Shown: one piece after another, positions 5,502-20,584 of the stretch
Layout: each line of letters starts with the position of its first letter
How positions within the stretch are numbered: the stretch's first letter is position 1
From: Sulfurovum sp.
GTDB taxonomy: Bacteria; Campylobacterota; Campylobacteria; Campylobacterales; Sulfurovaceae
NCBI GenBank assembly: GCA_027062365.1
Contig: JAMOTK010000030.1
Location: 1-43,991, forward strand
Length of the DNA stretch: 43,991 nucleotides
Direction of reading: 5' to 3'
Translations under genes and position numbers: made by a program
Notes under the pieces: generated by a model
Databases searched by the model: none
Told to the model about the DNA's origin: nothing
What the model saw: only the letters and a program-made list of their open reading frames with translations

Positions 5502-5972
5502 TTATTCAAAGTATTCATTGATAATTTGAGGGAAAAGCTTCATTGTTTTTCTCGCTTTGTCTATCTTGGGTTGAAAGACTTCTGCTGAATTTGGGTAATC
5601 TCTGATAAATTCGTCATAAATAGATATTTTGTTTTCCATGTGTGCTTCTAGGGCATCTAAAACAGACTGCATATTTTCTTTGCTTGTGGCATATTTCATA
5701 AGAAGTTCAAACATACGTTTACGTGGGTGTATCGCCATAGAGTCACCTGCTACCAATGCAATATCTTTGATGTCCCAACGAGAGATGTAGATACCCGATA
5801 CATGAGGTGCAATGAGTTTGGCATAGAGTGCCTCTGTGTAAGATGGGTAGTCTTTTAAATCTACTTCTTCATCTGATGCACATTGTCCATCAGGACCAAA
5901 AGCTGGTTTACCATTGAAATTTTGCTGACTTATGTTAGCAAATTCTTCTCTTAAATTTTTTATATTATCCAT
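5502..5972 (-). CDS. Uncharacterised protein, last gene of the molybdoenzyme operon
   Basis: I do not recognise this 156-aa soluble protein. It is acidic and mostly helical, with no signal peptide, membrane helix or metal motif; the only cysteine is in DGQCASDEE near residue 31. A central stretch (IYISRWDIKDIALVAGDSMA) is the most conserved-looking part. It starts at an ATG with a good AGGAG and overlaps the gene at 5965 by 8 nt, so it is co-translated with the molybdoenzyme accessory genes. An accessory role in maturing or targeting that enzyme is inferred from position only. Confidence 0.7.
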   Translation of the reverse strand: MDNIKNLREEFANISQQNFNGKPAFGPDGQCASDEEVDLKDYPSYTEALYAKLIAPHVSGIYISRWDIKDIALVAGDSMAIHPRKRMFELLMKYATSKENMQSVLDALEAHMENKISIYDEFIRDYPNSAEVFQPKIDKARKTMKLFPQIINEYFE

Positions 5973-6444
5973 TATTTTCTCCTATAAGTATGGGGATATC
6001 ATCCACATCTATTTTACTGTCAAACCAGCGATTTGCTAATAACATCATCTTTGCAACAAAGAGGATTTGGTCATCAAGAAACTCTGGTTTATCAAACAAT
6101 GCTTTGGCATCATCACTTAGACAATAGCCATATACCTTGCTTTCTTTAATCTCTACAAAATCTACACGCCCTTCTTTAGTTGCACAGGCATCAAGACTGT
6201 TACAATACTGTATTACTTTTTCTGAAAACTCACGCTCTATCATCATCATATCAACTTTAGAACTCCCCACACTTGTCATCGTAATAGCAAAATGTTCATC
6301 TGTGATATTTAGAGCAATAGCCGTAGCATTCATCGCATTATGTTTCATTATTTTATTAAAATAGCGTCTCATATATCCTGTCTGTGCATTGTGACCCAAG
6401 ATAGTACAGAGTTTGGTATCTGGTTTTATTTCATGTGGTTGCAT
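5965..6444 (-). CDS. Uncharacterised protein with a faint AroE N-terminal-like pattern
   Basis: A 159-aa soluble protein between a ferredoxin (TAATG overlap of 1 nt upstream) and the uncharacterised gene at 5502 (8-nt overlap). By eye the order TKLCTILGHNAQTGYMRRYF, then FAITMTSVGSSK, then SKVYGYCLSDDA resembles the substrate-binding half of shikimate dehydrogenase (GNPxxHSxSP, VTxPxK, GxNTDG). The NAD(P)-binding half is absent and the catalytic NTDG is not conserved, so it would be a non-catalytic relative at best. The resemblance is my pattern reading, not a database match. The context points to molybdoenzyme maturation or control. Confidence 0.65.
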   Translation of the reverse strand: MQPHEIKPDTKLCTILGHNAQTGYMRRYFNKIMKHNAMNATAIALNITDEHFAITMTSVGSSKVDMMMIEREFSEKVIQYCNSLDACATKEGRVDFVEIKESKVYGYCLSDDAKALFDKPEFLDDQILFVAKMMLLANRWFDSKIDVDDIPILIGENNG

Positions 6445-7565
6445 TAGTTATTACCTTTACTTTCTTCTTGTAAAGCTTCCATGCGTTTGGCGTTGTTATG
6501 CAAAAACATCGCTTCTTCTTCTTCTACTGCACATCGAGGACAGGTTTGTTCGCCACCCATATAGGTAAAGCTATTGCCACATTCCATACAACGCTTGATA
6601 TTAAATGTAGCCAAGGTGCGTTGTTTAGGCTCAAAAAATTCTTTGATTTCAAACCCTGCTTGTAACTGTATTGCATCAGGTTCACAGACATCATGGCAGA
6701 GACGACACTTCACACAAAGCATCGCATCAAAATGAATTAGCGAAAATTTCGCCGTACTACTCAATGCTCCTGTAGGACAAATACGATAACATATCTGACA
6801 ATTGGTACAACTCTCCTCTACAAATTTTTGAGAAATAAAGCCAATCTCTTCTTCGGGTAAAATCTCAAAACTATCAGGTATGTTTGCATGTTTGAGTGTG
6901 GTCAAAAGTATTTTACGTTTATCTGGTAGATTTTTTTCTTTTATTTTAGAAATAATATCTGGATTAAGTGCAAATACTTTTAGCTCATCAGCTTCTACAG
7001 CTTCATCAAAACTCATCTTATGTTTGACCACCCCTTTGAGAGAGGCATTGCCTAAAAAAGAACGTCTTGAAGAGATTTCTTCTATTTCTTGTTCTTCATC
7101 TTGTTCTATATCTTCAGCATTGCTAGAGAGTTGTTTGGATGAAAAAGAAGAGAGTACAAAATTTGCCTCTTCTATCCGTGCTTTGATTTGATCATACAAT
7201 ATACTTTGACTGTCATAAGAGCTAACATCTAAAGTAATCTCTTCCTCACTTGCCAATGCAAAAGAAATCAGATGTTCTACCGAAAACACAGAGAGACAAG
7301 GTACATTAAACTTAGGACTAATCAGCCTTACTTTAGACTCCAAAAAGGTAAAGAAAAATTCTGTTGTAGAGAACTCTGATAAAGAAAAAGCTTCTGTAGG
7401 ACAAGCACCTACACAAGAAGATGCTTCTACCCCTGTATTGTTGGCAAAGCTTGGTAGATTGTCTACGAGTTGTATAGACTCAGGACAAGCATCTATACAT
7501 TTGGTACAATCAGAAAATTTACTTGTAGCCCTAATACAAGAGGCTATTTCAAGATGTAATGACAT
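6444..7565 (-). CDS. Multi-cluster ferredoxin-like protein of the molybdoenzyme operon
   Basis: A 373-aa Fe-S protein. N-terminal cysteines at 10, 20, 23, 27, 51 and 55 could bind a cluster in a broken ferredoxin pattern. A middle region without cysteine pairs contains an SRRSFLGNAS stretch (arginines 167-168) that looks like a Tat motif inside the protein. Two classical [4Fe-4S] sites follow (C253/256/259/263 and C284/287/290/294), then a zinc-ribbon or rubredoxin-like CxxC...CxxC (326/329/342/345). Start taken at 7565, where ATG overlaps the torD stop as TAATG; an ATG at 7592 is possible. Likely cytoplasmic, for cluster insertion or electron supply to the Mo enzyme; exact role unknown. Confidence 0.82.
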   Translation of the reverse strand: MSLHLEIASCIRATSKFSDCTKCIDACPESIQLVDNLPSFANNTGVEASSCVGACPTEAFSLSEFSTTEFFFTFLESKVRLISPKFNVPCLSVFSVEHLISFALASEEEITLDVSSYDSQSILYDQIKARIEEANFVLSSFSSKQLSSNAEDIEQDEEQEIEEISSRRSFLGNASLKGVVKHKMSFDEAVEADELKVFALNPDIISKIKEKNLPDKRKILLTTLKHANIPDSFEILPEEEIGFISQKFVEESCTNCQICYRICPTGALSSTAKFSLIHFDAMLCVKCRLCHDVCEPDAIQLQAGFEIKEFFEPKQRTLATFNIKRCMECGNSFTYMGGEQTCPRCAVEEEEAMFLHNNAKRMEALQEESKGNN

Positions 7566-8221
7566 TAATTTTCTACTGCCTGTGTTTGGCAATGGCTATC
7601 AAGTTGTGCTGTAATGTATTCAAAATCAGAGAGTAAAAACTCTAAACTAAGCTCTGCTCCATCATGATAAAGTGGTGTACGTGACTCACGCTTTGCATTG
7701 ATAAGAAACAGTGGGGTCCACTCTAAAAGATGTTCTTTAAGAAATGCACGTTGTACTTGAAGTAATTCACAAATACCATCTTTGTCTTCTGCTTCAAGTG
7801 CTTTTTGTAGTGCCATACAAAGCATATACATAAACTCAAGTTCTACACCGATATGGTCTGCACTCACTACCCTAGCCTTGTCTAATTCTACACGGAAATC
7901 AAGCTCATTATAGAGTTCTAGTACAGGATTATCTCCTCCACTCTCTATCATTTGGTCATCGCGTGTATAAAAACTTTCATACGGTACAAGGTGCATCAAA
8001 AAGAGATTGGTAAAATCTACATTATAATGCTCCTCAATAAGTAATTCTTTAGATAAAGTTTTTCTTTTATCCCAGTGCATATAGTTTGGAAATAATTCCA
8101 ATAAATCAGGGTCGCTTTCTATCTGCTCTAAAAATGCAACATCAACTTCTACTAGCATAAGCCGAGAGATGAGTGCATAAATTGCAATACGATTTTCTAT
8201 ATCTTTTTTCATTTGTTCCAT
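7565..8221 (-). CDS. TorD/DmsD-family chaperone for the molybdoenzyme
   Basis: A 218-aa, all-helical cytoplasmic protein. TorD-family chaperones bind the Tat signal of a molybdoenzyme, hold it for cofactor insertion and prevent early export. The hallmark LVPYESFYTRDD (around residue 77-88) and the helical C-terminal half match the family. AAAGG lies 6-7 nt before the ATG. It is encoded 122 nt behind the Tat-dependent catalytic subunit, the natural client, and overlaps the next ferredoxin gene by one base. Confidence 0.85.
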   Translation of the reverse strand: MEQMKKDIENRIAIYALISRLMLVEVDVAFLEQIESDPDLLELFPNYMHWDKRKTLSKELLIEEHYNVDFTNLFLMHLVPYESFYTRDDQMIESGGDNPVLELYNELDFRVELDKARVVSADHIGVELEFMYMLCMALQKALEAEDKDGICELLQVQRAFLKEHLLEWTPLFLINAKRESRTPLYHDGAELSLEFLLSDFEYITAQLDSHCQTQAVEN

Positions 8222-8306
8222 TATTTGCCTTTTTGTGAACTATACTACTTTCAAGATAAATAAAGCTTAATAAGATGAGTTATCTAGGAAATTGTATAGA
8301 ATATGT

Positions 8307-8330
8307 AGGACAGACAGAAATGTCTGTCCT
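8307..8330. terminator. Perfect stem-loop between catalytic subunit and torD
   Basis: AGGACAGACA and TGTCTGTCCT pair perfectly over 10 bp around a 4-nt loop (GAAA on the plus strand, TTTC in the operon transcript). It lies 13 nt past the catalytic-subunit stop, in the 122-nt gap before torD. No U-tract follows on either strand, so full intrinsic termination is unlikely. It more plausibly acts as a partial terminator, an RNA-processing site or a 3-prime stabiliser that keeps structural subunits more abundant than the chaperone. Confidence 0.6.
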
Positions 8331-8343
8331 TTAAGATAAAAGA

Positions 8344-11300
8344 TTATCCTGTAATTTTAACTGCGTATGCTTTGTCCGAAAGAGGCACAGCAGGACGCTT
8401 AATATGTTGAGGACGACGAAGTGTGTCTGTCTCATCAAGAGGACGTGTAAGGTCATCTCTCCATGCTTGATAAATCTTCATGTTGTTCTCGTAGTTGACG
8501 TAAATATCACCGATAACATCATCTTTACCTGCAAGTTCCATGCTGACCTTTTGGTGCCATGCATGGTGTCCTGCAATAGGGTCTGGGTGAGAAGCAGCTA
8601 CAGCATTTTGCCATGAACCACTTAAACCATCCCACCAAATATTGTCAAGGTCTTTGTTGTACTCTTTAAATTGCCAAGACTCTTTACGAGAATTTAATCC
8701 ATCGATAATACTTTGTGTTGGTTTGAGTGTACCAATTTTACCATCCATAGTCATCTCATATAGAGGTGCACCTAAACCTAAGATACCTAATTTATGCTCA
8801 AATCCAGGGATGTCCACTGCATTTTTGAGTTTCCATCTACCTGCATGGTGTGAACACGCTAGTACACCTGGCATAGTAGCTTCTGTTGGTACAGCCATTG
8901 CAATGAAGTATCCTGATTCAAGTCCACAAACAGTATCTTGAATCGTTACTTTAACTGCATCACCTCTTTTGATGTTGAGTTTTTCAGCATCTTTAGTGTA
9001 AATCCATACAGGGTTATGGTTTTGTGAAATCTCCATAAGGTGCTTAGAGTTTACAGAACGTGTATGAATATTGTACGGCAATCTAAAGACTGTGTTGAGT
9101 GCAAAATCATTGTCTGTTTTCATAAAGTCATGGTGTACTTGTGTCACAACATGCGTCATCTTCACTCTACCTTCTTTTGTAGTTGGGTAGATAGGTATAG
9201 CATACTCTGGCCATTTCCAATCTTTGAACCACTCACAGTAGAAGTCTAGCTTTTTGGTAAGTGTATGGAAACCTTGTACAAGCTCTCCATCTACTTCAAC
9301 ACCAATGGCTTTTTCTTTACCATGAGCATCTGTTGCCATAATAACACCAAATTCATCTTTTCTTACATTTTCTTCTGCATACTCATGTCCGTGAGAAATG
9401 TATTTTGTACCCACTTTTTTGAGTGGTCTTTCTTGTGGCTTAAAGATATTATCTTCTTCTAACCATGTTCCTCTATCTCTCATCATCTCATAGTTAGGAT
9501 ACTGTGAATCAGGATAAGCTGCTTTGGCTGCTTTTTTAAGATTAGGAAGTTTATCAAATGCTGCTTGATACCACTCTGGAATCGTTACGGCTCTTGTTGG
9601 ATCTTCTTTTGAAGCCCAATATTTTCTTACGCCTAAGCTTCCATCTGGGTCAACATGATGTACCATGATATTTGCCCAAAATTCTACTTCTTCCCATACT
9701 TCACCAAGACCTGCTTTGATATGTGCTTCAAGCGTAGCTCTTGTTGGATCTTTTGGTTTCCAACCCATTTTTTCTAGTGCTACACGAAGTGCAGGGTTAC
9801 GGAATGACAACCATCTTTTTGGCTCTGTGGCTTCTGAATGTTGGTCATGTCTTTCACCTGCTAATCCTACTGGCAAGATAAAGTCACAATACCAGTTTGT
9901 CTCAGACCATGTAGGAGATAGGTTAAAACTCATCTCAATTTTATCTTCTCTTTTTAGACATTCTATCCATCTAAATCCATCTGGATTAATCCAAACAGGG
10001 TTATACATACGAGGAATCCAAACAGCTAGTTTTTCAGGAACTTTAAGCCCTTTAGAGTTCCATTTATTTCTCCACTCATCATCAAGCAATAAGTGAGGCA
10101 TAATATGACTCATCTCATAAGAAGAAAGAGGATACTCAGGCGGCCAAGCAATTTCATTCCAAACATCTACTTTTGGAGGTCTTGCACCATTTTGAGTGGC
10201 AGCATCACCTTTACCATTGACGGAGATAACATGCCAGTGGTGTAGTCCTACCCCACCTTTGTCTCCAGCCATTGCTCCACGAAGCACAAATGGTAAGAAT
10301 CCTGCACGAGCAATCATCCATCCACCTTTATGCCCAATAGGACCTGCTCTCCAGATATACGTGGCTACTCTAGCACCTGCATCGATAAACATATCATAGA
10401 GTTTTTCTACAATACGTTTTTCAATACGACATTCCTCTGCTACAAAGTCAAGTGTATAAGGAGAATACATTTCAGAAATCATTGTAATAAAGTCTTCATA
10501 GCTATCTCCAGCAGGTACTGCTTTGATATATTCTTTATCTACAAGTACTTGAAGGTACTCTCTGTCTTTCATAAGATGATCCCAGTTAACCCAATTTTTT
10601 ACAAAATTGTGGTTTACAAGGTCTTCACCATTGATACCTTTTTCATTAAGGATACGGTTTGCAAGGTAGAGATAAAGTGCTGTCTCCGTCCCTGGCCAAC
10701 AAGGTACCCATAGGTCTGCCATACCAGCAGAGTTAGAAAGTCTAGGATCCATAACCACAAGTTTTGCACCTTTTTTACGTGCTTCAGCGATACGCCCTGC
10801 TGCTTGTTGGAAATAATGCCCTGCATCTGCTGCATGAGAAGATTGTAAGAAAATCAGTTTGGCATTTGCCCAGTCTGGTGAGTTTCTATCATCATTAGAC
10901 CATTGGATTGTTCCTTGTCTAGCCCCTGCTGAACAGATGTTTGTATGAGAATCATATCCATCAAGACCCATTGAGTGAGGTACTCTATGACCAAAACCGT
11001 TTTCATTTGGACGACCCACATGGTACATGATTGATTTTTTAGAAATCTCATCACCCACTTTAAGTGTATCGTGCATTTTTTTACCGATTTTTGCCATGGC
11101 TTCATCCCATGTCGTTCTTACCCATTTACCCTCACCTCTTTTAGAACCAGGGGCTCTCATAAGTGGGAAAGGTATTCTATCTGGGTCATACATTTGTGAT
11201 TGTGCTGCGTACCCTTTGGCACAGTTTCTACCACGGCTTCCTGAATGTAAAGGGTTACCCATATATTTACGAACGGCTAATTGACCCCCTGCTTTATACG

Positions 11301-11673
11301 TAGAAAGGTCAACCCATGCTGTAAGTCCACAAGAGGCTTCACAGTTTGAACATGAAGTAGGTACAAGCATATATTCAGTGGCTTTAATACCATCTGGATT
11401 TTCTTCGCTTTGTACACCATTTCTACTTGTACCTCCACGTTTCCAGTCATTTCCATCTAATTCTGTAAAAGAATCCCATTCTTCTAATGGTGGATAAAAT
11501 GCCAATGTTTTTGGTGTTGGAGTAAATTTACTCTCAGCTTGTATTTCTGTAGTAGCTACAGTTTTAAATACACCAGTAGCAAGTGTTGCTCCTGCTACAG
11601 AATAGGCTGTACCTTTTAGGAAGCTTCTTCTACCTTCGATAAAATTACTGTCGTTTTTCATTGATTTTGTCAT
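8344..11673 (-). CDS. Tat-exported molybdopterin oxidoreductase, catalytic subunit (DMSO reductase superfamily)
   Basis: A 1109-aa catalytic subunit of a complex iron-sulfur molybdoenzyme. A Tat signal (GRRSFLKG, arginines 15-16) indicates export across the inner membrane. C108/C111/C115/C151 form the [4Fe-4S] site, followed by the MGD-binding core; SHTNICSAGAR places a cysteine at 247 as likely Mo ligand, the class used by polysulfide, thiosulfate, tetrathionate and arsenate enzymes and by formate dehydrogenases. The protein is longer than PsrA or PhsA (about 760 aa) and closer to TtrA in size. With ferredoxin and NrfD partners a quinone-linked sulfur-compound reductase or oxidase is likely, but the substrate cannot be fixed. 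AAGGAG precedes the start. Confidence 0.9.
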   Translation of the reverse strand: MTKSMKNDSNFIEGRRSFLKGTAYSVAGATLATGVFKTVATTEIQAESKFTPTPKTLAFYPPLEEWDSFTELDGNDWKRGGTSRNGVQSEENPDGIKATEYMLVPTSCSNCEASCGLTAWVDLSTYKAGGQLAVRKYMGNPLHSGSRGRNCAKGYAAQSQMYDPDRIPFPLMRAPGSKRGEGKWVRTTWDEAMAKIGKKMHDTLKVGDEISKKSIMYHVGRPNENGFGHRVPHSMGLDGYDSHTNICSAGARQGTIQWSNDDRNSPDWANAKLIFLQSSHAADAGHYFQQAAGRIAEARKKGAKLVVMDPRLSNSAGMADLWVPCWPGTETALYLYLANRILNEKGINGEDLVNHNFVKNWVNWDHLMKDREYLQVLVDKEYIKAVPAGDSYEDFITMISEMYSPYTLDFVAEECRIEKRIVEKLYDMFIDAGARVATYIWRAGPIGHKGGWMIARAGFLPFVLRGAMAGDKGGVGLHHWHVISVNGKGDAATQNGARPPKVDVWNEIAWPPEYPLSSYEMSHIMPHLLLDDEWRNKWNSKGLKVPEKLAVWIPRMYNPVWINPDGFRWIECLKREDKIEMSFNLSPTWSETNWYCDFILPVGLAGERHDQHSEATEPKRWLSFRNPALRVALEKMGWKPKDPTRATLEAHIKAGLGEVWEEVEFWANIMVHHVDPDGSLGVRKYWASKEDPTRAVTIPEWYQAAFDKLPNLKKAAKAAYPDSQYPNYEMMRDRGTWLEEDNIFKPQERPLKKVGTKYISHGHEYAEENVRKDEFGVIMATDAHGKEKAIGVEVDGELVQGFHTLTKKLDFYCEWFKDWKWPEYAIPIYPTTKEGRVKMTHVVTQVHHDFMKTDNDFALNTVFRLPYNIHTRSVNSKHLMEISQNHNPVWIYTKDAEKLNIKRGDAVKVTIQDTVCGLESGYFIAMAVPTEATMPGVLACSHHAGRWKLKNAVDIPGFEHKLGILGLGAPLYEMTMDGKIGTLKPTQSIIDGLNSRKESWQFKEYNKDLDNIWWDGLSGSWQNAVAASHPDPIAGHHAWHQKVSMELAGKDDVIGDIYVNYENNMKIYQAWRDDLTRPLDETDTLRRPQHIKRPAVPLSDKAYAVKITG

Positions 11674-11686
11674 AGATATTTTCTCC

Positions 11687-12637
11687 TTAACTTAATGGTA
11701 GCATTTGTGGAATTTTGAGCCATACATCTTTGACCAAGAATAACCCTACCAATGCTAAAAGTGCTGCGAAGTTAAGCAGCGTTTTGTTGTCACTCTTCAT
11801 ATTGCCAACAGCAATAAAGAATGGGATAATAAATCCTAGAACCATACCTATCCAAAATTCGATATTGTATGATCCACCTGCGTGAACATACGCTAAAATT
11901 GCTTCTGCTTCTGCTGATTTGAATGAGAAAAAGTACTCAGACATATACATGCCAAATGAGAAGAATGTAGAAAGTGCTAAGACAAGAGATAAATCTTTTC
12001 TAGCTTCTTTTGTCCACGAAGATGAAACAAAAATAAGTGCTGCTGAACCTGCTAAAAGTGCTGCCCACATCATTTGCATGACTTCTGTAGGTGCTTGCCA
12101 TAGTTCACGTGCTGAAGCTTGAGCCATGATAATCGCTGTATAGGTTGTCACAGGGATAGCTAAAAATACAAGAAAAGGCATGATTTTTTCATACAGTCCT
12201 GCATTGTTTCTACCAAACTTAGTAAGTAAACATCCTTTGAATGGTACACCTGGAAATTTCTCACCAACAGCAATAAACATCAGTACAGAAACCAGTCCTA
12301 AGAAAATAGAAGCTAACCATGCACCCACAGTAATAGATGAAGTCCAATGAGGATGTAAGAAAATATTTACCATTCTATACGGCTGATGTAAATCTATCAG
12401 TGTAAACAATAAGAAAACATTGAGTGCTAAAAATGCAATGACTGGCATTGTCCATTTAAGGTTTGGCATATCTTCTTTGCTATGTCTAAACCATAAAAAT
12501 GATGCTAAAAACACAACACCTGTCCCGATACTTTTTGCCCACATGTTCACAGTAATAATACTACCCCAAACAATACCTTGAATAGGCACATCTAATGTTA
12601 CAACAGCTTGTGTTGCGTGAATTGTACTCTCTACCAT
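11687..12637 (-). CDS. NrfD/PsrC-type membrane anchor subunit
   Basis: The membrane subunit that exchanges electrons with the quinone pool. The 316-aa product has about eight to nine hydrophobic helices and an NrfD-like layout, including LIDLHQPYRMVNIFLHPHW in the second to third helix region and an ELWQAPTEVMQ loop. Start chosen at 12637, where GGGAGG lies 8 nt upstream and the ATG follows the ferredoxin stop by one base; an upstream in-frame ATG at 12688 would add 17 polar residues inside the ferredoxin gene. The catalytic gene follows after 13 nt. Confidence 0.88.
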   Translation of the reverse strand: MVESTIHATQAVVTLDVPIQGIVWGSIITVNMWAKSIGTGVVFLASFLWFRHSKEDMPNLKWTMPVIAFLALNVFLLFTLIDLHQPYRMVNIFLHPHWTSSITVGAWLASIFLGLVSVLMFIAVGEKFPGVPFKGCLLTKFGRNNAGLYEKIMPFLVFLAIPVTTYTAIIMAQASARELWQAPTEVMQMMWAALLAGSAALIFVSSSWTKEARKDLSLVLALSTFFSFGMYMSEYFFSFKSAEAEAILAYVHAGGSYNIEFWIGMVLGFIIPFFIAVGNMKSDNKTLLNFAALLALVGLFLVKDVWLKIPQMLPLS

Positions 12638-12638
12638 A

Positions 12639-13394
12639 TTAGTGTCCTCCCTCTTGCTCGTGTGAATCTTCAGATGTTGCTGATTCAATTAAACTTTTAT
12701 TATCAAGTGCATCATGCCCTACAAATGGTGCTAGAAATCTATCTAAAATACCATGATTTTTATCACCTACGTGATCTAAATGTGTAATATTATTAAAGAG
12801 GTTATAGCCTTCAATTCTTTGATGTGCTAAAGGATTAAGCGTTTGATTACCACCACCGACATAGAAATGTGTTGGAGAAGTATGCTTTTCGGGCTTACGT
12901 ACTTGAACAGCACCACGATGCTCCATAATATACAATGAAATATTAGAATGGTCATCTTCAAGGTCACCAAAGATATTGGCTTCAACAGGACACGCCACGA
13001 CACACGCTGGCATCATACCAGATTCAATTCTATGTGCACAATACGTACATTTATCAGCCGTATTTGTCTCAGGATCCATATAAATCGCTCCATAAGGACA
13101 CGCCATCATACATCCTGCACACCCAATACATCTAGCACTATCAATATTGACAATACCATTTTCTAGGTAATGCAACGCAGATACTGGACAGATACGTTCA
13201 CATGGTGCAGATTCACAGTGATTACAACGTAAAGGTGTAAAACTTCTACTTGTATCTGGGAATATTCCCAAATCAATATATTTTACACGTAAACGCCAAG
13301 TACTTAGTGGTACTTCATTTTCTACTTTACAAGCAATCTCACAACCTTTACAACCCATACATAGGTTAAGGTCAACTAAAAAACCTAATTTCAT
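12639..13394 (-). CDS. Four-cluster ferredoxin electron-transfer subunit (PsrB/DmsB type)
   Basis: The 251-aa subunit carries electrons between the Mo catalytic subunit and the NrfD anchor. Four [4Fe-4S] cysteine groups are visible: C12/15/18/22, C57/60/65/69, C89/92/95/99 and C116/119/131/135, the standard arrangement for this family. The C-terminal 100 residues are histidine-rich and less conserved. No signal peptide, as expected for a subunit exported with its Tat-bearing partner. First gene of the operon, with a near-ideal TAAGGAGG ribosome binding site. Confidence 0.92.
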   Translation of the reverse strand: MKLGFLVDLNLCMGCKGCEIACKVENEVPLSTWRLRVKYIDLGIFPDTSRSFTPLRCNHCESAPCERICPVSALHYLENGIVNIDSARCIGCAGCMMACPYGAIYMDPETNTADKCTYCAHRIESGMMPACVVACPVEANIFGDLEDDHSNISLYIMEHRGAVQVRKPEKHTSPTHFYVGGGNQTLNPLAHQRIEGYNLFNNITHLDHVGDKNHGILDRFLAPFVGHDALDNKSLIESATSEDSHEQEGGH

Positions 13395-13586: not shown

Positions 13587-14984
13587 CTAAAAGCTATATG
13601 AAATATCCATAAATACCATATCGTTATTTTCAATGGCATCAAAGAGTATGTTTCCTCCGATGTAATCTACTATGCCTACATTCATATTGATAGCGTCTGC
13701 TAGTTCGTACTTGACCCATGCTCTTTGGAAGCCTCCTTCGTCTAGCTTTTCTCCGTAGAGAGAGAGGAGATAGTTTGCTGTGAGTGTGGCATTTAAAAAA
13801 TCTGAACTTACTCTAAAGGCATGTTGATAATAATGTTTTTGAAGGGGATTAAACTCTTCTAAAAGTCTTTTATCATAGTTGTTTATCTGTCGTGATACAA
13901 TATCGTAGCTGATTAAAGTATCACTAAATCCATTATATTCTACACCCAAAAGTGCATCTGTACGGCTAAAGGTTTTTTCTGCTGTAGCTGTATATTTTAG
14001 TCCATCAAAATAGGCTAATTCTGTTTTAAAAAGCCATGAACCAGAGAGGATGTTGAGGGCTGTACCAAACATCGTTACTTTGTCATGCTTTATTTGTGCG
14101 ATACCTGACCTTTTGTCTATATACCCTGCATCATCATGTGTGTTGGCTGCGTAAAAATTAATATCCCAACCCGAAAACTCTGCACCCACACTCAAAGCAT
14201 ACGTTACATCATCATAACTCTCATCTGAGGGTATCGCAATAGGCGAAGGATTGAAGTCTCCTCCAAAAGGAGGATTTTTAGAAAAGCGTTGTTCTACGAT
14301 AGCAATAGGGGTAATACGCCAATCGCCTACAAAATAGTCAAGCTTTACCATCGTAACAGGTAAACGCAAGTCTTCTATGTCTGTCATGGCAGGGTTACGA
14401 TTGTCTAAGGGGTTAAGTATATCTGTGACACGGATAGTATCACTTCTACCCCATACGACCACTTGACGACCTATTTTATAATCAAAGTTATCAGTGATTT
14501 TACCTTCTATATACGCATCAAAGAGTTCTAGTTCTGATTCGAGTTCATTCAATGTATCTGAGGCGAAATCTCCTCTATCTTTGAGGCTATAAATAGCATC
14601 ATAGTAGGCTTTGGCATTGATTTTGATACGGATACCATTATCAAATTTATGCTCATAGTCTAAAAATAATGAACTCTTCAGCGATGTGACATCCTCATAA
14701 GGAGCATCATTATCCCATGAGAAGGCAACTTGTTCTGTGAGCTTACCTGTAAACCCTGAAAGGACGTTAGGCGTAGTCTCTTGGGCAACCACTTCTGTAG
14801 AAGATTCAGTAGAAGAAGGTTCATCATCAAAGCCATCCATGATTTCATCTTTGGCTTCTGTGTTTACACTTGGAGTACTTGTGCTAGGGGCATCATCAAA
14901 GCCTTCTAAATCAGCATCGATACTTTGGGCATTCAAAAGTGTAAAAAGAGAGGCTAGGAGTAAAACCTTGCTACGTTTTTGCAT
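13587..14984 (-). CDS. DUF1302-family outer-membrane beta-barrel protein
   Basis: A 465-aa secreted protein: signal peptide (about 1-19), an acidic low-complexity N-terminus with two copies of a GFDDxPS motif (28-34 and 51-57), then a beta-barrel ending in the outer-membrane-type SYSF. The segment IGRQVVVWGRSDTIRVTDIL is the DUF1302 signature. In other bacteria DUF1302 proteins are encoded with MMPL exporters and are thought to serve envelope transport, without a defined substrate. It starts 3 nt after the LolA-like gene, with AAAGGA upstream. Confidence 0.8.
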   Translation of the reverse strand: MQKRSKVLLLASLFTLLNAQSIDADLEGFDDAPSTSTPSVNTEAKDEIMDGFDDEPSSTESSTEVVAQETTPNVLSGFTGKLTEQVAFSWDNDAPYEDVTSLKSSLFLDYEHKFDNGIRIKINAKAYYDAIYSLKDRGDFASDTLNELESELELFDAYIEGKITDNFDYKIGRQVVVWGRSDTIRVTDILNPLDNRNPAMTDIEDLRLPVTMVKLDYFVGDWRITPIAIVEQRFSKNPPFGGDFNPSPIAIPSDESYDDVTYALSVGAEFSGWDINFYAANTHDDAGYIDKRSGIAQIKHDKVTMFGTALNILSGSWLFKTELAYFDGLKYTATAEKTFSRTDALLGVEYNGFSDTLISYDIVSRQINNYDKRLLEEFNPLQKHYYQHAFRVSSDFLNATLTANYLLSLYGEKLDEGGFQRAWVKYELADAINMNVGIVDYIGGNILFDAIENNDMVFMDISYSF

Positions 14985-14987
14985 CTT

Positions 14988-15785
14988 TTATAGTCCTTTT
15001 TCGATACGTCTTGTGGTAAATAAAGCATCATCTAATGGCTTATTTACTTTGATATTTTTAAAATTCAAGGCTGTTTTATGTGTCATTGTTTTACCTTTTT
15101 TGGTAGTCATTGTCATCTCATCTATGACCCATACACCACCTTGTTTGTGCATTTTTTTAATATCAAGATACTTTTTCTTACCATTTTTCATGTAGTTAAT
15201 CGCTCTTACGAGTACATAATTATCTTTACGCACGATAGCCACTGTTTTGGTATATCCTGATTCTTTGATAGTCTTTTTGTTACGAGGTATAGATTCTATC
15301 ATCCATGCATCTTTGCCACGAACTTTGGTCTCTTTGATGAACTTAAAGTTATAATCTTCTAAGTCTCTATCTGTCATATCATAGTAAGAAAAATCTGAAC
15401 CCATGAAGCTACCACTTTTATCGGCACTTGGGATACGCTTGACTTTTTTCAACGCAGGAAGATAGAGCCATTGGTCATCATCTTTAGACGCATCATCATA
15501 ATCATAGGTCAAAAATGCTGTATTTTTGACATCTGATGGAGATTTAAAAAACATTGTTTGATGCTCATCTTCTCCAAAATCTTTGCTATATGATTTCATA
15601 TCTCTGATTCTTTTTTTACCATTTTTATCGATGAGTACCATCATCATGTCTTGTTCAATCGTTTTTCCATCATCTCTAGCATCTACCTTTTCCATGATAG
15701 CTCTGGCTTTGGCATCATCTGCGATGGTATGTGTTGTCATGAGAGAAAGCCCTAAAGTCAGTCCAATTAGTAATTTTTTTGTCAT
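14988..15785 (-). CDS. LolA-like outer-membrane lipoprotein-sorting family protein
   Basis: A 265-aa periplasmic protein with a signal peptide (about 1-22, ending TIADD). The body matches the LolA-like (TP_0789-type, COG2834-like) family: DDQWLYLPALKKVKRIP, then GSFMGSDFSYYDMTDRDLEDY, and a basic C-terminal half. Family members have a half-barrel that can shelter an acyl chain. Encoded between an MMPL exporter (26 nt upstream) and DUF1302 (3 nt downstream), it is a candidate periplasmic shuttle for what the exporters release. AAAGGA lies 6 nt before the start. Confidence 0.82.
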   Translation of the reverse strand: MTKKLLIGLTLGLSLMTTHTIADDAKARAIMEKVDARDDGKTIEQDMMMVLIDKNGKKRIRDMKSYSKDFGEDEHQTMFFKSPSDVKNTAFLTYDYDDASKDDDQWLYLPALKKVKRIPSADKSGSFMGSDFSYYDMTDRDLEDYNFKFIKETKVRGKDAWMIESIPRNKKTIKESGYTKTVAIVRKDNYVLVRAINYMKNGKKKYLDIKKMHKQGGVWVIDEMTMTTKKGKTMTHKTALNFKNIKVNKPLDDALFTTRRIEKGL

Positions 15786-15811
15786 TTTATTTCCTTTTAT
15801 TATGTGTATAT

Positions 15812-18208
15812 TTATTTTATCCAGCCACGTTTGGCCACCACTATCATCAACGCAGGAGCGAGTAATAAATCAGACAACAGTGCCATGATGATGACCGTTC
15901 CTGTGAGTAGTCCGAAGTTTTGTACCGAAATCATATTGGCAAAGAGATAGGCATAAAAACCTAAAGAAAGTACGATAGTCGTAATCACCAAGGCTTTACC
16001 TGCTGTAAAGAATGTCTGTTCTATTGCGTACGATGCATCTCCACTTTCTAGGTAGTATCTCCTAAAATTGTGCATGAAGTGAATGGTATCATCCACGGCT
16101 AACCCTATTGCAATGCTTCCAATAAGTAGGGTAAACATATCCAATGGTATGTTCATGATATACATAAGAAGCAGTCCCATGATAATAGGTACAAGGTTTG
16201 GTATCATCGTCAAAAGTCCTACACGAACAGAACCCATGATAAGCATCATCATAAAAGAGATACCCACAAATGCCATGAGGTAACTACTGACCGAGGAGCT
16301 AATCGCTTGTGAAAAGGTATTGATAAGCAACGGTATCATCCCCGTAGTGACAATCGTGTCTTTTGGGAATGCTTTTTGTGCTTCTTTTTGTACATATCCC
16401 AATACTTCTACAGCTTTGACTGCGTCCGTCCATGGTAGCTTGATAGAGATACGTGCTTTTGAAAATTGAGAATCAACCACGTCTTCTAAGTCATCTGAAC
16501 CTGAGTTTTCAAAGAGAAGTAACTCTTGTGAAACAAGGTCTGCATTATTTGGTATCGTATAGTATGCTTCATCATTTTCATGTAAAGCTCTATTTGTCTC
16601 TTTGATAATTGTTGCAAGAGAAATCACTTTACCGATATGTGTATTAGTGTCTACATATTTTTCCATATTTTCAGAGAGTGTATTGAGTGTATTGAGTCTT
16701 TCAGGGTCATTCCAACCGTTTTCTGTTTTGGTATCAATGATAAGTTCTATCGTAACTGAACCATTGAGACTCTCATCTATCACTTCGGTAGAGATACGGT
16801 CATAGCTATCTGGCTGAAACCATTTAAGAGGATTGTGAGAAAGCTCTATTTGTGTGGCAGCTGTGAGTGAGATGGCTACAAGAATAGCACTTCCTACTAA
16901 AATACTCTTATAATGATTTATCGGTAAACTAGCCAATCGTTTCATGATAAGGTCTAATTTGTCTGATTCTGTTTTTACTTTTTGTTTGAGTTTAGTCAGA
17001 CTCAAAAGTGCGGGTAAAAGTGTCAAGGTTAAGACCAATGAAATAAGTACACCCAAAGAAGCATACATACCCAAATCAGAGATAGGTGCGACTTCCGAAC
17101 CAGAAAATGACCCTACCCCAATGGCTGTGGTAAAAGATGTCATGATAATAGCCAAACCAGAATGCCTTAGTGTATAAGACAAGGCTTCTTTTTTGTCTCC
17201 AATAGTATTGAATTTATCAAAAAAGATAGAGAGGATATGTACCGTTGCACCTATACTAACAGCCATCAATAAAGAAGGCACTATCTGCGTAGGAAGCTTA
17301 AACGCCACCCCTGCCCATCCCATCGTACCAACGGTAGTTAGTAATGCAAGGACAATCACAATCACAGGATAAAATACTGCTGATGCACGTCTAAACATGA
17401 TAAATAAGAAAACAACAATAATCAAAAAAGTAATACGCATAAATTTTTGCATATCTGCTTGCATTTGAGATTTGAGTGCATGATTTACAGCAGGTGACCC
17501 TGCTACATAGATTTCAAAACTATCACTTTTATACTTTTGAGTGATTTCATGGATAGCATTAACCAGTGTTGCATTTTCTTTATCGCTAAGAAATGCTCTT
17601 TCTTTCGCTACAGTAGGTGACTCTTCAGCAAAGCCCTCATCAAAGGCATCTTCATCAGACACTTCGACCAAACCTTCATGAGAATATGCATCTGTTTCTA
17701 TGATAATAGTCGTCATCTTGCCATCTTGGGAAATAAATAAATCTTTATAAAAATGAGATGCCATAGTCTGTTGTTTGATGATAGCTACGTCTTCTTTAGT
17801 CTTAGGAAAATGCTCCAACAAATCATCCGTGATAAGCTTATCACCCTCACCTCTGGTGTTTCTTACGTTATAGAGTGAGGTAATATCTTCTAAAAAAGGT
17901 ACATTGCTTTCTAGCTCTTCATGGAGTGATTTAAGGGTATTTAAGAACTTCAAAGAAAAGATATTGTCACTTTTAATTGCGATAAGCACACGCTCATCAC
18001 GACCAAACTGCGCTCTAAAATCATTATAGGCTAAAAGGACTGGGTCATCAGGATGCATAAATCCTTCTGTAGAAGTATCCATCTTTATCTGAGGGACATG
18101 AGAAAGAGGAAAGGCAAGTATTAGCATGATAAAAACAATCACTTTAAAAGGATTATCATGGATAAACCCTCCAAATCTCCCCATAAGATTTTCTAATTTT
18201 TTGTGCAT
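15812..18208 (-). CDS. MMPL/RND-family exporter (first of a tandem pair by position)
   Basis: A 798-aa inner-membrane protein with the RND half-repeat layout: one N-terminal helix (about 22-40), a large periplasmic loop, helices 2-6 (about 258-405), helix 7 (about 437-455), a second loop, and helices 8-12 (about 660-795). The segment GLAVDDTIHFMHNF near residue 715 is typical of the MMPL/HpnN branch. A direct link to hydrophobic cargo is inferred from the LolA-like and DUF1302 neighbours. AAAGGA precedes the start. Separated from the second exporter by 60 nt. Confidence 0.88.
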   Translation of the reverse strand: MHKKLENLMGRFGGFIHDNPFKVIVFIMLILAFPLSHVPQIKMDTSTEGFMHPDDPVLLAYNDFRAQFGRDERVLIAIKSDNIFSLKFLNTLKSLHEELESNVPFLEDITSLYNVRNTRGEGDKLITDDLLEHFPKTKEDVAIIKQQTMASHFYKDLFISQDGKMTTIIIETDAYSHEGLVEVSDEDAFDEGFAEESPTVAKERAFLSDKENATLVNAIHEITQKYKSDSFEIYVAGSPAVNHALKSQMQADMQKFMRITFLIIVVFLFIMFRRASAVFYPVIVIVLALLTTVGTMGWAGVAFKLPTQIVPSLLMAVSIGATVHILSIFFDKFNTIGDKKEALSYTLRHSGLAIIMTSFTTAIGVGSFSGSEVAPISDLGMYASLGVLISLVLTLTLLPALLSLTKLKQKVKTESDKLDLIMKRLASLPINHYKSILVGSAILVAISLTAATQIELSHNPLKWFQPDSYDRISTEVIDESLNGSVTIELIIDTKTENGWNDPERLNTLNTLSENMEKYVDTNTHIGKVISLATIIKETNRALHENDEAYYTIPNNADLVSQELLLFENSGSDDLEDVVDSQFSKARISIKLPWTDAVKAVEVLGYVQKEAQKAFPKDTIVTTGMIPLLINTFSQAISSSVSSYLMAFVGISFMMMLIMGSVRVGLLTMIPNLVPIIMGLLLMYIMNIPLDMFTLLIGSIAIGLAVDDTIHFMHNFRRYYLESGDASYAIEQTFFTAGKALVITTIVLSLGFYAYLFANMISVQNFGLLTGTVIIMALLSDLLLAPALMIVVAKRGWIK

Positions 18209-18268
18209 AAGTATCCTTTGAAATTTTAATTTAACATTGTATCATGTGTATATATATCGTTTATGAAT

Positions 18269-20584
18269 TTATTGCTCTATTTCTATTTTTGTGTACCTTT
18301 TTTGACTATCCATCACAGAAAGTAAAGCAGGTAACAAGAGCATATCAATAATCAGTGCCAAGATAAGAGCTGTAGCTGTCACTACACCAAAATTTTGATT
18401 GGGTGTAAAAGTTGAAAATGCAAAAATAGAAAACGACAAACTTAGCACCACAGTAGTAAAGAAGATAGCACGTCCTGCGTAATGTAACACCTCATCAAAA
18501 GTATCTTCCATAGATAGACCTCGTTTACGTGCATCAAAATATTTGACCAAGAAGTGAATACTGTCATCAACTGCCACCCCAATGATAATTGCCCCAGCAA
18601 TAGCCACCCCCATATCAATAGTCATACCAAGCCACCCCATAAGCCCAATGACCAAGACAACAGGCAAGATATTGGGTAAAATGAGTATCCACAATATCTT
18701 GAAGCGTTTGAAGATAAGCAACATCATCAAAGAGACAATCAAGATACTCAATGACAAAGAGTATATCAACGTATCTGTTACATCTTTTGCCATAGAAGCA
18801 TACATAGACGTTTGCCCTGTTAGCGTGAGGACGTAAGGGGTTTTAGCCCACCATGCTTTGGCATAGTGTATCATCTGCATATCTTTAGAATTGTCTACAA
18901 TATTGGTAAGGACGGTAATCCTTAATTTACGTTGGTCAAAGTCCATTTGGTCGGTTATCTCCATCCCCTGAGCTAAACCCATCGAGTAGAGTAAGAGATA
19001 CTGAGCGACTAGATTTCTATTGGTTGGGACGACATCTTTGTCATCCATAATTTTATTATAACGCTTGATAATATCGAGCAAAGAAGAGATATGACGGACA
19101 TCTTTAGGAAACTGTGCTGTATAATCTTTGTAAAATTCTTCTACCGTAAGTAAAAAGTGAGGCTCTTTAATCCCATCTGTTTTAGTACTATCGACTATCA
19201 AGACATACGACATAGACCCTGTGAGATTGTCCATGGTAAACTCCGAGGATTGACGTATCTCTACTTCTTTATCAAAATACTTAATCGTGTTAGAGTCTAC
19301 TTTTACAAAAAATAGACCCATCCCCATTACAAGCATCATCAGCGTAGAAATTACTATAATTTTTTTATCATTTTTGACGATAAATGCTCCATATCCAAAG
19401 GATTTTAATGCTTTTTTTGCTACATTATTTTCTTTCTTATTTTCTTTTTTAATAGGCTTTTTGAGTAACAACAATACAGCAGGCATCCAAAATATAGAAA
19501 TCACAAATGCCAATACTGCCCCACTAGCTGTAGCAATACCCAGTGTAGCTACAGGTACTATCTTGGAAATAGCCAAAGTACCAAAGCCTACCATCGTAGT
19601 AAGTGACGTGAGAAATATTGCCAAAAAATTCTTCTGTATAGAATGCAAGACGGCTTCTTTATTTTCTAAGCCTTCTTTTTTTCCCATAAGCCATACAGAG
19701 TAGATATGCACAGCATCAGCGATACCAATCGCTACGATAAATACAGGGATATTGGCTGTAAAGTTATTGAGTTTGTAGCCTAAAAGTGTTTGTACTGCCA
19801 ATACCGATAAAAAAGTAAAAAATACCACACCCAGAGGGATAAATGCCCCACTCAAACGCCTAAAAAGCACCAAAAGAAGTATCATAGAAATCAAAAAGAC
19901 CAAAGGGGTAAATACCATAGCATCATGCCCAGCTATATCTACAAAAGCTTGTGTCATCGGCGGCCCACCATTGAGCCAATACTTATAGCCTGTACGTTGG
20001 GTCTCAGGGTTGATAATAGCGTAAATATCTTCCATCACTTCTGCTGAAATATCTCCATTTTCATTGGCTTGGGCTTCAAGTCGTGCAAAAATCATCGTAG
20101 TCGTAGCATCTTTAGAGACAAACCTATCTTTAATCATACTATCTTGTGTTGCTATATCTTGACGGTTTTGTAAGTATGTCGTTGTAGCTTCTGCTAAATC
20201 TTCGATGATAAAATCATTCACAAGCACATCATCTGGCTTAGAAGCTTCATTATGTACATACTGATAATTTGTAATACTATCTACCCTATCAATATGTGGC
20301 ATATCCCATAAGGCTTCAGTGATACGCTGTATACTTCCTAGTGCCTTTTTATTGAAGATACCATTCTCATCTTTAAAGACAATCGTTACCCCATCATCAT
20401 TAGAAAATGCTTCTCTAAACGCATCATAATCTTTTAGCGTTTTAGAATCTTTTTCAAACCAAATACGATAAGAACCATCTATCTCCAAATGCTTAAGACT
20501 CGAAGCCAAAAACAATACAAACAAAGGCACTAACAAAACAATCGCCCATCTAAATCTGTATAAAAATTGTATATATGTTCGCAT
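18269..20584 (-). CDS. MMPL/RND-family exporter (second of the pair)
   Basis: A 771-aa relative of the neighbouring exporter with the same twelve-helix layout and paired signatures IGIADAVHIYSVWL (first half) and GVAVDDSIHFLVKYFDA (second half). The two differ widely in their periplasmic loops, so they are an old duplication or separate subunits and not a recent copy. Likely first gene of the exporter, LolA-like and DUF1302 operon; AGAGG lies 7 nt before the ATG. Confidence 0.88.
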   Translation of the reverse strand: MRTYIQFLYRFRWAIVLLVPLFVLFLASSLKHLEIDGSYRIWFEKDSKTLKDYDAFREAFSNDDGVTIVFKDENGIFNKKALGSIQRITEALWDMPHIDRVDSITNYQYVHNEASKPDDVLVNDFIIEDLAEATTTYLQNRQDIATQDSMIKDRFVSKDATTTMIFARLEAQANENGDISAEVMEDIYAIINPETQRTGYKYWLNGGPPMTQAFVDIAGHDAMVFTPLVFLISMILLLVLFRRLSGAFIPLGVVFFTFLSVLAVQTLLGYKLNNFTANIPVFIVAIGIADAVHIYSVWLMGKKEGLENKEAVLHSIQKNFLAIFLTSLTTMVGFGTLAISKIVPVATLGIATASGAVLAFVISIFWMPAVLLLLKKPIKKENKKENNVAKKALKSFGYGAFIVKNDKKIIVISTLMMLVMGMGLFFVKVDSNTIKYFDKEVEIRQSSEFTMDNLTGSMSYVLIVDSTKTDGIKEPHFLLTVEEFYKDYTAQFPKDVRHISSLLDIIKRYNKIMDDKDVVPTNRNLVAQYLLLYSMGLAQGMEITDQMDFDQRKLRITVLTNIVDNSKDMQMIHYAKAWWAKTPYVLTLTGQTSMYASMAKDVTDTLIYSLSLSILIVSLMMLLIFKRFKILWILILPNILPVVLVIGLMGWLGMTIDMGVAIAGAIIIGVAVDDSIHFLVKYFDARKRGLSMEDTFDEVLHYAGRAIFFTTVVLSLSFSIFAFSTFTPNQNFGVVTATALILALIIDMLLLPALLSVMDSQKRYTKIEIEQ

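Follow-up and report, generated by a model that had tools for sequence, protein, structure and literature searches.

A Campylobacterota subfamily of Tat-exported molybdoenzymes with a putative four-gene maturation cassette

The 43,991-nucleotide stretch of DNA analyzed here (the window) is contig 30 of a Sulfurovum-type genome of 2.3 Mb that is 99.8% complete. It carries on its minus strand seven genes in the order B-C-A-TorD-Fd-s2-s1, and all seven open reading frames were confirmed. The products of B, C and A are predicted to form a complex iron–sulfur molybdoenzyme (CISM) exported by the twin-arginine translocation (Tat) pathway; the other four genes encode a TorD-family chaperone, a polyferredoxin (Fd) and two small proteins that we call s2 and s1. 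A CISM is a known kind of enzyme; what is new is the Campylobacterota subfamily to which A belongs and the unusual, mobile four-gene set, presumably for maturation, that goes with it. We consider it probable, at roughly 0.6, that ABC is a periplasm-facing sulfur CISM of a subfamily of its own, served by a cytoplasmic maturation cassette. The sequence-only reading of this region had suggested that the enzyme may be a distinct one with a maturation set of its own, and that idea gains support from the separate A subfamily, from the presence of s1 in 82 and of s2 in 80 of the 85 genomes that encode A (among 397 Campylobacterota genomes), and from the joint movement of the cassette genes.

Results

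The ABC complex and the phylogeny of A

A (8344..11673, on the minus strand like all the features below) is a Tat-exported molybdopterin catalytic subunit of 1109 residues with the signal GRRSFLK. Its FS0 cysteines are residues 108, 111, 115 and 151; Cys247 is the Mo ligand. The domain models PF00384 (47.7 bits, cut-off 24), PF04879 (36.3 bits, cut-off 22.7) and PF01568 (28.7 bits, cut-off 26.8) all recognize it. B (12639..13394) is an electron-transfer subunit of 251 residues that lacks a signal peptide, with 16 cysteines in four CxxC...C groups for four [4Fe-4S] clusters. C (11687..12637) is an NrfD/PsrC-type membrane anchor (PF03916, 73.5 bits, cut-off 25.8) of 316 residues when read from the ATG at 12637, a better start than the TTG at 12688, which would yield 333 residues (reading frame 11687-12688). 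Judged by these motifs, a Mo-pterin subunit with FS0 cysteines, a four-cluster B and an NrfD anchor, ABC classifies as a CISM. The gene order B-C-A is that of Ttr as well.

Orthologs of A, with 63–100% identity, occur in 85 of the 397 genomes (two are partial, at contig ends) and in 11 of 11 sampled genomes of the window's genus. The next match in the phylum is about 35% identical over about 270 residues, in the N-terminal third only. A scan of a collection of genome contigs yielded 104 relatives among 108 candidate stretches, and 80 were kept; the titles of 78 name Sulfurovum, Sulfurimonas or other Campylobacterota/Epsilonproteobacteria, and two say only 'bacterium'. The Tat motif RRxF[LI] is found in 72 of the 80 rows. 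The remaining eight comprise six start-truncated sequences, one that is a mis-called overlapping C frame (L077) and one with RRSFM (L064).

A reaches no NCBIfam cut-off. It scores 109.8 of 694 bits with PhsA (NF012032), 109.5 of 777.7 with DmsA/YnfE, 61.5 of 1600 with ArrA (NF041714) and 47.6 of 1750 with TtrA (NF011567); its best match in the PDB is Thermus PsrA (2vpw, 117 bits). Two maximum-likelihood trees of 48 and 45 rows were computed by a quick search, with the Shimodaira–Hasegawa-like approximate likelihood ratio test (SH-aLRT) as the only support; the second omits five rows of the first that were redundant or had long branches, and adds two, including one that is unassigned (L210). 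In both trees, 13 A rows form one group (SH-aLRT 100), whose sister is a group from Thermomicrobium, Rhodococcus and Natrinema (SH-aLRT 100). Next out are Azoarcus KH32C and a Campylobacterota type of 842–854 residues (SH-aLRT 99 for the whole set). The larger branch that holds A also holds ArrA/ArxA and TtrA (SH-aLRT 98–99); A shares this branch with the TtrBCA and ArrABC enzymes but is separated from them by clade, since the TtrA rows form one clade of their own and the ArrA-like and ArxA rows another, and by scores far under their cut-offs. The PhsA and PhsA-like 'Psr3' rows fall on a different branch from A, and an approximately unbiased (AU) test rejected a single clade of the 13 A rows and eight PhsA/PsrA3-type rows (p 0.0023). 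These results support A as a separate, Campylobacterota-specific subfamily. The superfamily tree that had been suggested as a check of the sequence-only reading thus gave no firm clustering of A with a characterized enzyme, in trees whose references include no SoeA, SreA or name-verified Wolinella PsrA and therefore leave room for a close tie of A to SoeA or SreA. Four plasmid regions were checked for a SoeA reference; none was identifiable as SoeA, one was an arx operon, which supplied the ArxA row, and another provided the unassigned row L210 of the second tree.

Two further observations concern relatives of A. The molybdoenzyme of 842–854 residues (5774-8900 of locus L140; 6445-9667 of L177), which the tree places as sister to the A/Azoarcus set, has a B subunit and no anchor gene, and may be the psrA2B2 of the literature. 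In Sulfurovum mangrovi ST1-3 (8401-11738 of L145), the match to A is broken into three tblastn pieces that coincide with no gene annotation, possibly as a result of frameshifts or sequencing errors; B is likewise unannotated there.

Published names and the relation to polysulfide reductases

The accessible text of a study on S. indicum ST-419 (PMC10045233) describes four 'PsrA', of which PsrA1 is present in all Sulfurovum and is 81–89% similar to the 'PsrABC' of Sulfurovum NBC37-1; it places the Mo-ligand cysteines of the four at 171, 247, 183 and 195, and that of NBC37-1 at 257. In our untruncated A rows this cysteine lies at 231–258, and in the PhsA-type rows of the sampled Sulfurovum G225 at 183 and 195. 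We infer that A corresponds to the PsrA of NBC37-1 and to one of the four proteins of ST-419. The published labels conflict on which one: Cys247, by printed order, points to PsrA2, whereas the presence in all species and the similarity point to PsrA1. According to the same text, psrA3, and not psrA1B1C1, is induced during sulfur reduction in S. indicum, and the cysteine position suggests that psrA3 is PhsA-type. The text also reports that a typical twin-arginine motif is absent from all four ST-419 PsrA, to be compared with the frequent RRxF[LI] motif in the A rows.

PsrABC and PhsABC resemble ABC in the Tat-exported Mo subunit with a cysteine ligand, the four-cluster B, the NrfD anchor and the quinone link. 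They differ in that A lies in a separate clade and is about 350 residues longer than P. mirabilis PhsA, and in that the TorD-Fd-s2-s1 cassette is peculiar to ABC. An ordinary polysulfide or sulfur reductase (Psr), as the enzyme taken as A is named in Sulfurovum papers (PMC10045233), with the accessory genes as a lineage decoration, is the foremost alternative and in our view a doubtful one; it would account for the published name, the cysteine ligand shared with PsrA and PhsA and the match to 2vpw, but not for the low score with the PhsA model, the outcome of the AU test, or the induction by sulfur reduction of a different gene, the apparently PhsA-type psrA3.

Organization and distribution of the accessory cassette

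The TorD-family chaperone (7565..8221; 218 residues; PF02613, 62.2 bits, cut-off 22.2) is followed by Fd (6444..7565; 373 residues from the ATG at 7565, the better start within a longer reading frame, 6444-7592), s2 (5965..6444; 159 residues) and s1 (5502..5972; 156 residues). With Fd read from its ATG, TorD and Fd overlap by 1 nucleotide, Fd and s2 by 1 and s2 and s1 by 8, exactly as noted beforehand from the sequence. The conclusion drawn there, that all the genes belong to one function, does not follow from the overlaps themselves: because a gap of 122 nucleotides parts A from TorD, the overlaps tie the accessory genes only to each other, not to BCA. The gene set recurs in related genomes, and the association is therefore more than chance.

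Among the genomes with A, s1 was missed in G389 and G047, both truncated at contig ends, and in G210, which has TorD-Fd-s2; s2 was missed in G047, G389, G139, G250 and G251. Two genomes with no match to A have s1 and three have s2; G199 and G388 are fragmented assemblies, and the s2 match of G165 is weak. The expectation that the two small genes always stand beside A is thus borne out in so far as they are not absent from the genomes with A, but not to the extent of every genome. Gene order was inspected at the 23 of the 80 A loci that were listed. In the Sulfurimonas-type G318 and G252, the two genomes examined for this, B-C-A and an intact TorD-Fd-s2-s1 set occupy separate loci (L121/L122 and L123/L124), and in six of six Sulfurimonas-type genomes with only BCA-TorD-s1, Fd and s2 stand side by side elsewhere. 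TorD, Fd, s2 and s1 are a cassette that moves together, or split in pairs, when apart from BCA.

No signal peptide is present at the N-termini of Fd, s2 and s1, in contrast to the Tat signal of A. Proteins exported by Tat fold and acquire their cofactors in the cytoplasm. Since Fd, s2 and s1 lack an export signal and travel with TorD, and a Tat substrate matures inside, they are likely cytoplasmic maturation factors, and TorD, Fd, s2 and s1 together would constitute a cytoplasmic maturation kit.

Fd, s2 and s1

The model of s2 (predicted local distance difference test, pLDDT, 92.3; 46 sequences) matches AroE structures with a Foldseek E of 6.3e-10, and superimposes on 2hk8_A with a VIA Z of 18.2 and a root mean square deviation of 3.0 Å over 152 residues (model 5-156, chain 1-266). 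The predicted fold identifies s2 as a shikimate dehydrogenase substrate domain, and the NADP domain has been deleted in the window's s2. The full-length s2 of other lineages has the NADP domain and matches TIGR00507 with E values of 1e-9 to 1e-12, far under the cut-off (about 39–48 of 200 bits). The motifs HSxSP, NVTxPxK and VNT...GYNTD, the catalytic motifs of shikimate dehydrogenase, are lost in all s2 sequences displayed in an alignment with eight of the ten AroE that were found. The motif GAGxxA survives in one group of full-length s2 and is lost in another, and the decay reads as a stepwise one, from the catalytic residues to the nucleotide motif and then to the whole domain. True AroE is encoded elsewhere in 10 of 10 genomes searched, including that of the window; s2 shares the substrate-domain fold with it but lacks the catalytic motifs and, in the window, the NADP domain. 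By its model and its motifs, s2 is a dead shikimate dehydrogenase domain. A literature search, the sole basis on which we regard this as not in print, found no paper tying shikimate dehydrogenase to a molybdoenzyme or TorD operon, and none on three S. denitrificans locus tags.

The two small proteins had both been regarded as unassignable from the sequence. This remains so for s1, an all-helical protein with an invariant Cys31 and no recognized family, but not for s2, given its degenerate shikimate dehydrogenase domain. The model of s1 is helical (pLDDT 83.3) and gave no convincing structure match. An hhalign comparison of s1 with TorD yielded a probability of 0.6%, no higher than for unrelated controls, and TorD structures were not among the PDB matches listed for the s1 model. 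No relatives of s1 were recognized beyond a paralog beside a second molybdoenzyme. Pfam matches of s2 to DUF3877 and of s1 to RhoGEF fell short of their curated cut-offs and were set aside.

Two C-terminal [4Fe-4S] motifs and a CxxC..CxxC pair are conserved throughout the 32 Fd rows. The second N-terminal cluster has been lost from 13 of them, among which is the window's Fd, where it is degenerate. All 32 rows also contain an internal twin-arginine motif, [SDT]RRxxx, which is SRRSFL in the window. Fd resembles NapF, a cytoplasmic multi-cluster ferredoxin of a Tat-exported molybdoenzyme with an SRRxxL motif; in NapF of E. coli K-12 the motif (SRRGIL) is N-terminal, whereas that of Fd is internal, and Fd reaches only 25.6 of the 102.2 bits required by the NapF model TIGR00402. 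NapF is reported, in the accessible text of PMC10609526, to act in NapA cluster assembly.

The second molybdoenzyme cluster was seen at seven Campylobacterota loci (L125, L127, L129, L131, L132, L134 and L138) and looks uncharacterized. It comprises a secreted rhodanese, a type-II DMSO-reductase-like A of 955 residues (TIGR03479, 756.6 of 984.75 bits), a B that scores above its cut-off, C, a lipoprotein, TorD and Fd, together with an LRV-repeat protein, the s1 paralog and an Mrp-type Fe-S carrier that the paralog adjoins.

A hairpin between the structural and accessory genes

The gap between A and TorD contains a hairpin (8307..8330) with a perfect 10-base-pair stem, a 4-nucleotide loop and no U-run, 13 nucleotides past the stop codon of A. 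A strong hairpin lies within 60 nucleotides past the A stop in 47 of 79 loci, where shuffled sequences lead one to expect 0.3, and in none of 78 loci at 60–120 nucleotides. The corresponding counts, which like the first omit loci with fewer than 60 nucleotides after the gene, are 1/65 past B, 1/67 past C, 5/66 past TorD, 1/51 past Fd, 2/43 past s2 and 4/51 past s1. The hairpin is commoner in Sulfurovum-like rows (39/56) than in more distant ones (8/23). The 47 hairpins have 44 distinct 5' arms; the stem is therefore kept while its sequence changes. A T-rich tail, with at least five T among the 8 nucleotides that follow, is present in just three of the 47, and the hairpin was rejected as an intrinsic terminator. 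It presumably stabilizes the mRNA or directs its processing and thereby keeps BCA at a higher level than the accessory genes.

Sister complexes and membrane orientation

The nearest relatives of A outside the phylum are from Rhodococcus, Thermomicrobium and haloarchaea, with 34–38% identity over 94–97% of A. These uncharacterized enzymes differ from the window's in having B fused to NrfD, a reversed anchor charge and no Tat signal. No signal was found in the A of L142, L143, L245 and L246, and in L141 the pattern matched once, immediately ahead of the Fe-S motif and not in a signal. TorD, s1 and s2 were not among the matches listed around L141-L143. In the Rhodococcus and two Natrinema loci, Mrp genes take the place of TorD/Fd/s2/s1 near A.

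The anchor charge, counted as N-terminal-side loops minus other loops in rows of at least 280 residues, is negative in 65 of 65 Campylobacterota C rows (mean -5.0) and positive in seven of seven sister rows (9-13 against 0-3). The charge pattern of the window's C predicts an N-terminus outside. By the positive-inside rule, the opposite charges imply anchors facing opposite ways, in step with the presence or absence of the Tat signal, and the whole complex is predicted to sit on the other face of the membrane in the sister group. Azoarcus KH32C has a Tat signal, its own TorD and Fd and the Campylobacterota pattern of anchor charge; the cytoplasmic form is therefore probably the derived one, as judged from few rows.

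The plasmid operon of Azoarcus KH32C (7275-15588 of L144) is a relative, not an ortholog, of the window operon, and has the order B-C-A-TorD-hypothetical-hypothetical-rhodanese-Fd-hypothetical; its neighbors are ars genes and a PhnD/two-component trio. No homologs of s1 or s2 were found among its hypothetical proteins.

Discussion

Within the framework of a sulfur CISM with a maturation cassette, ABC would be a quinone-linked, periplasm-facing complex that most likely acts on elemental sulfur/polysulfide, sulfite or polythionate and exchanges electrons with menaquinone via B and the NrfD anchor. The hairpin past A would determine how much structural mRNA is present relative to accessory mRNA. 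In the order of events that we envisage, TorD would bind the Tat signal and the core of A, and Fd would supply A with an Fe-S cluster or electrons before export, in the manner of NapF. The internal twin-arginine motif of Fd may dock on TorD or compete with the signal of A, and s2, as a dead domain, and s1, as a putative helical adaptor, likely scaffold or gate A. A more speculative and, in our estimate, improbable elaboration makes the cassette a Tat quality control, in which the twin-arginine motif of Fd is a decoy that holds TorD until clusters and cofactor are in place and s2 and s1 act as a gate, with the enzyme a sulfur oxidoreductase needed for Campylobacterota lithotrophy or disproportionation and the whole complex having switched membrane face between phyla.

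An inorganic sulfur compound is the likely substrate of A. Within the phylum, A is confined to families that, in our own reading of the taxa, resemble sulfur-oxidizing lithotrophs, and the sister-group genes stand beside sulfur genes in three of five annotated loci, namely TusA and DsrE in Rhodococcus and a rhodanese and a TauE/SafE exporter in two haloarchaea; in addition, a published transcriptome gives the name PsrABC to the enzyme that we take to be ABC. The first two observations would also suit a quinone-reducing oxidase (a sulfite, polysulfide or sulfur dehydrogenase) of lithotrophy, with a function like that of SoeABC on the periplasmic side, as would the high psrA1B1C1 transcripts under both conditions in S. 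indicum (accessible text of PMC10045233). SoeABC is likewise a quinone-linked CISM of sulfur oxidizers, but A is Tat-exported, whereas SoeAB has been hypothesized on the cytoplasmic side (PMC8076601). We regard a dedicated oxidase as rather unlikely, since SoxB is absent or under the cut-off in a large share of the genomes with A, the direction of the reaction is not readable from sequence and SoeA is not among the tree rows. A third alternative, in which Fd and s2 serve not maturation but electron input, or form an NAD(P)-linked module, to feed the enzyme or sense redox, would make use of the GAGxxA nucleotide-binding motif kept by the full-length s2 of some lineages and of the two canonical clusters of Fd, but is improbable, because Fd and s2 have no export signal while A has one, the NADP domain is entirely absent from the s2 of the window, and both genes keep company with TorD or s1, or form a pair.

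Several results weigh against a sulfur CISM with a dedicated maturation cassette. SoxB scored above the cut-off in 46 of the 85 genomes with A, leaving 39 without it, and 45 SoxB genomes lack A; because the overlap is just these 46 genomes, A is not tied to the Sox system and was rejected as a simple Sox partner. Sulfur genes were not seen near the sister loci of Thermomicrobium and N. halophilum (two of the five annotated loci), and sulfur reduction brought no significant induction of psrA1B1C1 in S. indicum according to the accessible text of PMC10045233. Neither small protein is indispensable everywhere, as one genome with A genuinely lacks s1 (G210) and three lack s2 (G139, G250 and G251). 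Four Sulfurovum-type loci with room for it have no cassette after A (L021, L025, L027 and L054).

At vents and redoxclines, Sulfurovum and Sulfurimonas rank among the major primary producers; their routes of sulfur reduction and disproportionation are described as still unassigned in the accessible texts of PMC9948710 and PMC12998232. In these organisms a conserved enzyme has apparently been read as a polysulfide reductase though it lies outside that clade. With the cassette one can ask whether a molybdoenzyme requires more for its maturation than TorD and insertion of the Mo cofactor, and s2 is a clear example of a metabolic enzyme domain that has died and yet been kept in a putative assembly operon. 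The predicted opposite orientation of the sister complexes would amount to a natural experiment on turning quinone-linked enzymes around.

The genes directly upstream of B were not found at the other loci compared and were rejected as part of the system. They occupy positions 13587-20584 of the window and encode, one after another, a DUF1302 beta-barrel, a LolA-like/DUF1329 protein and two MMPL/RND-type exporters.

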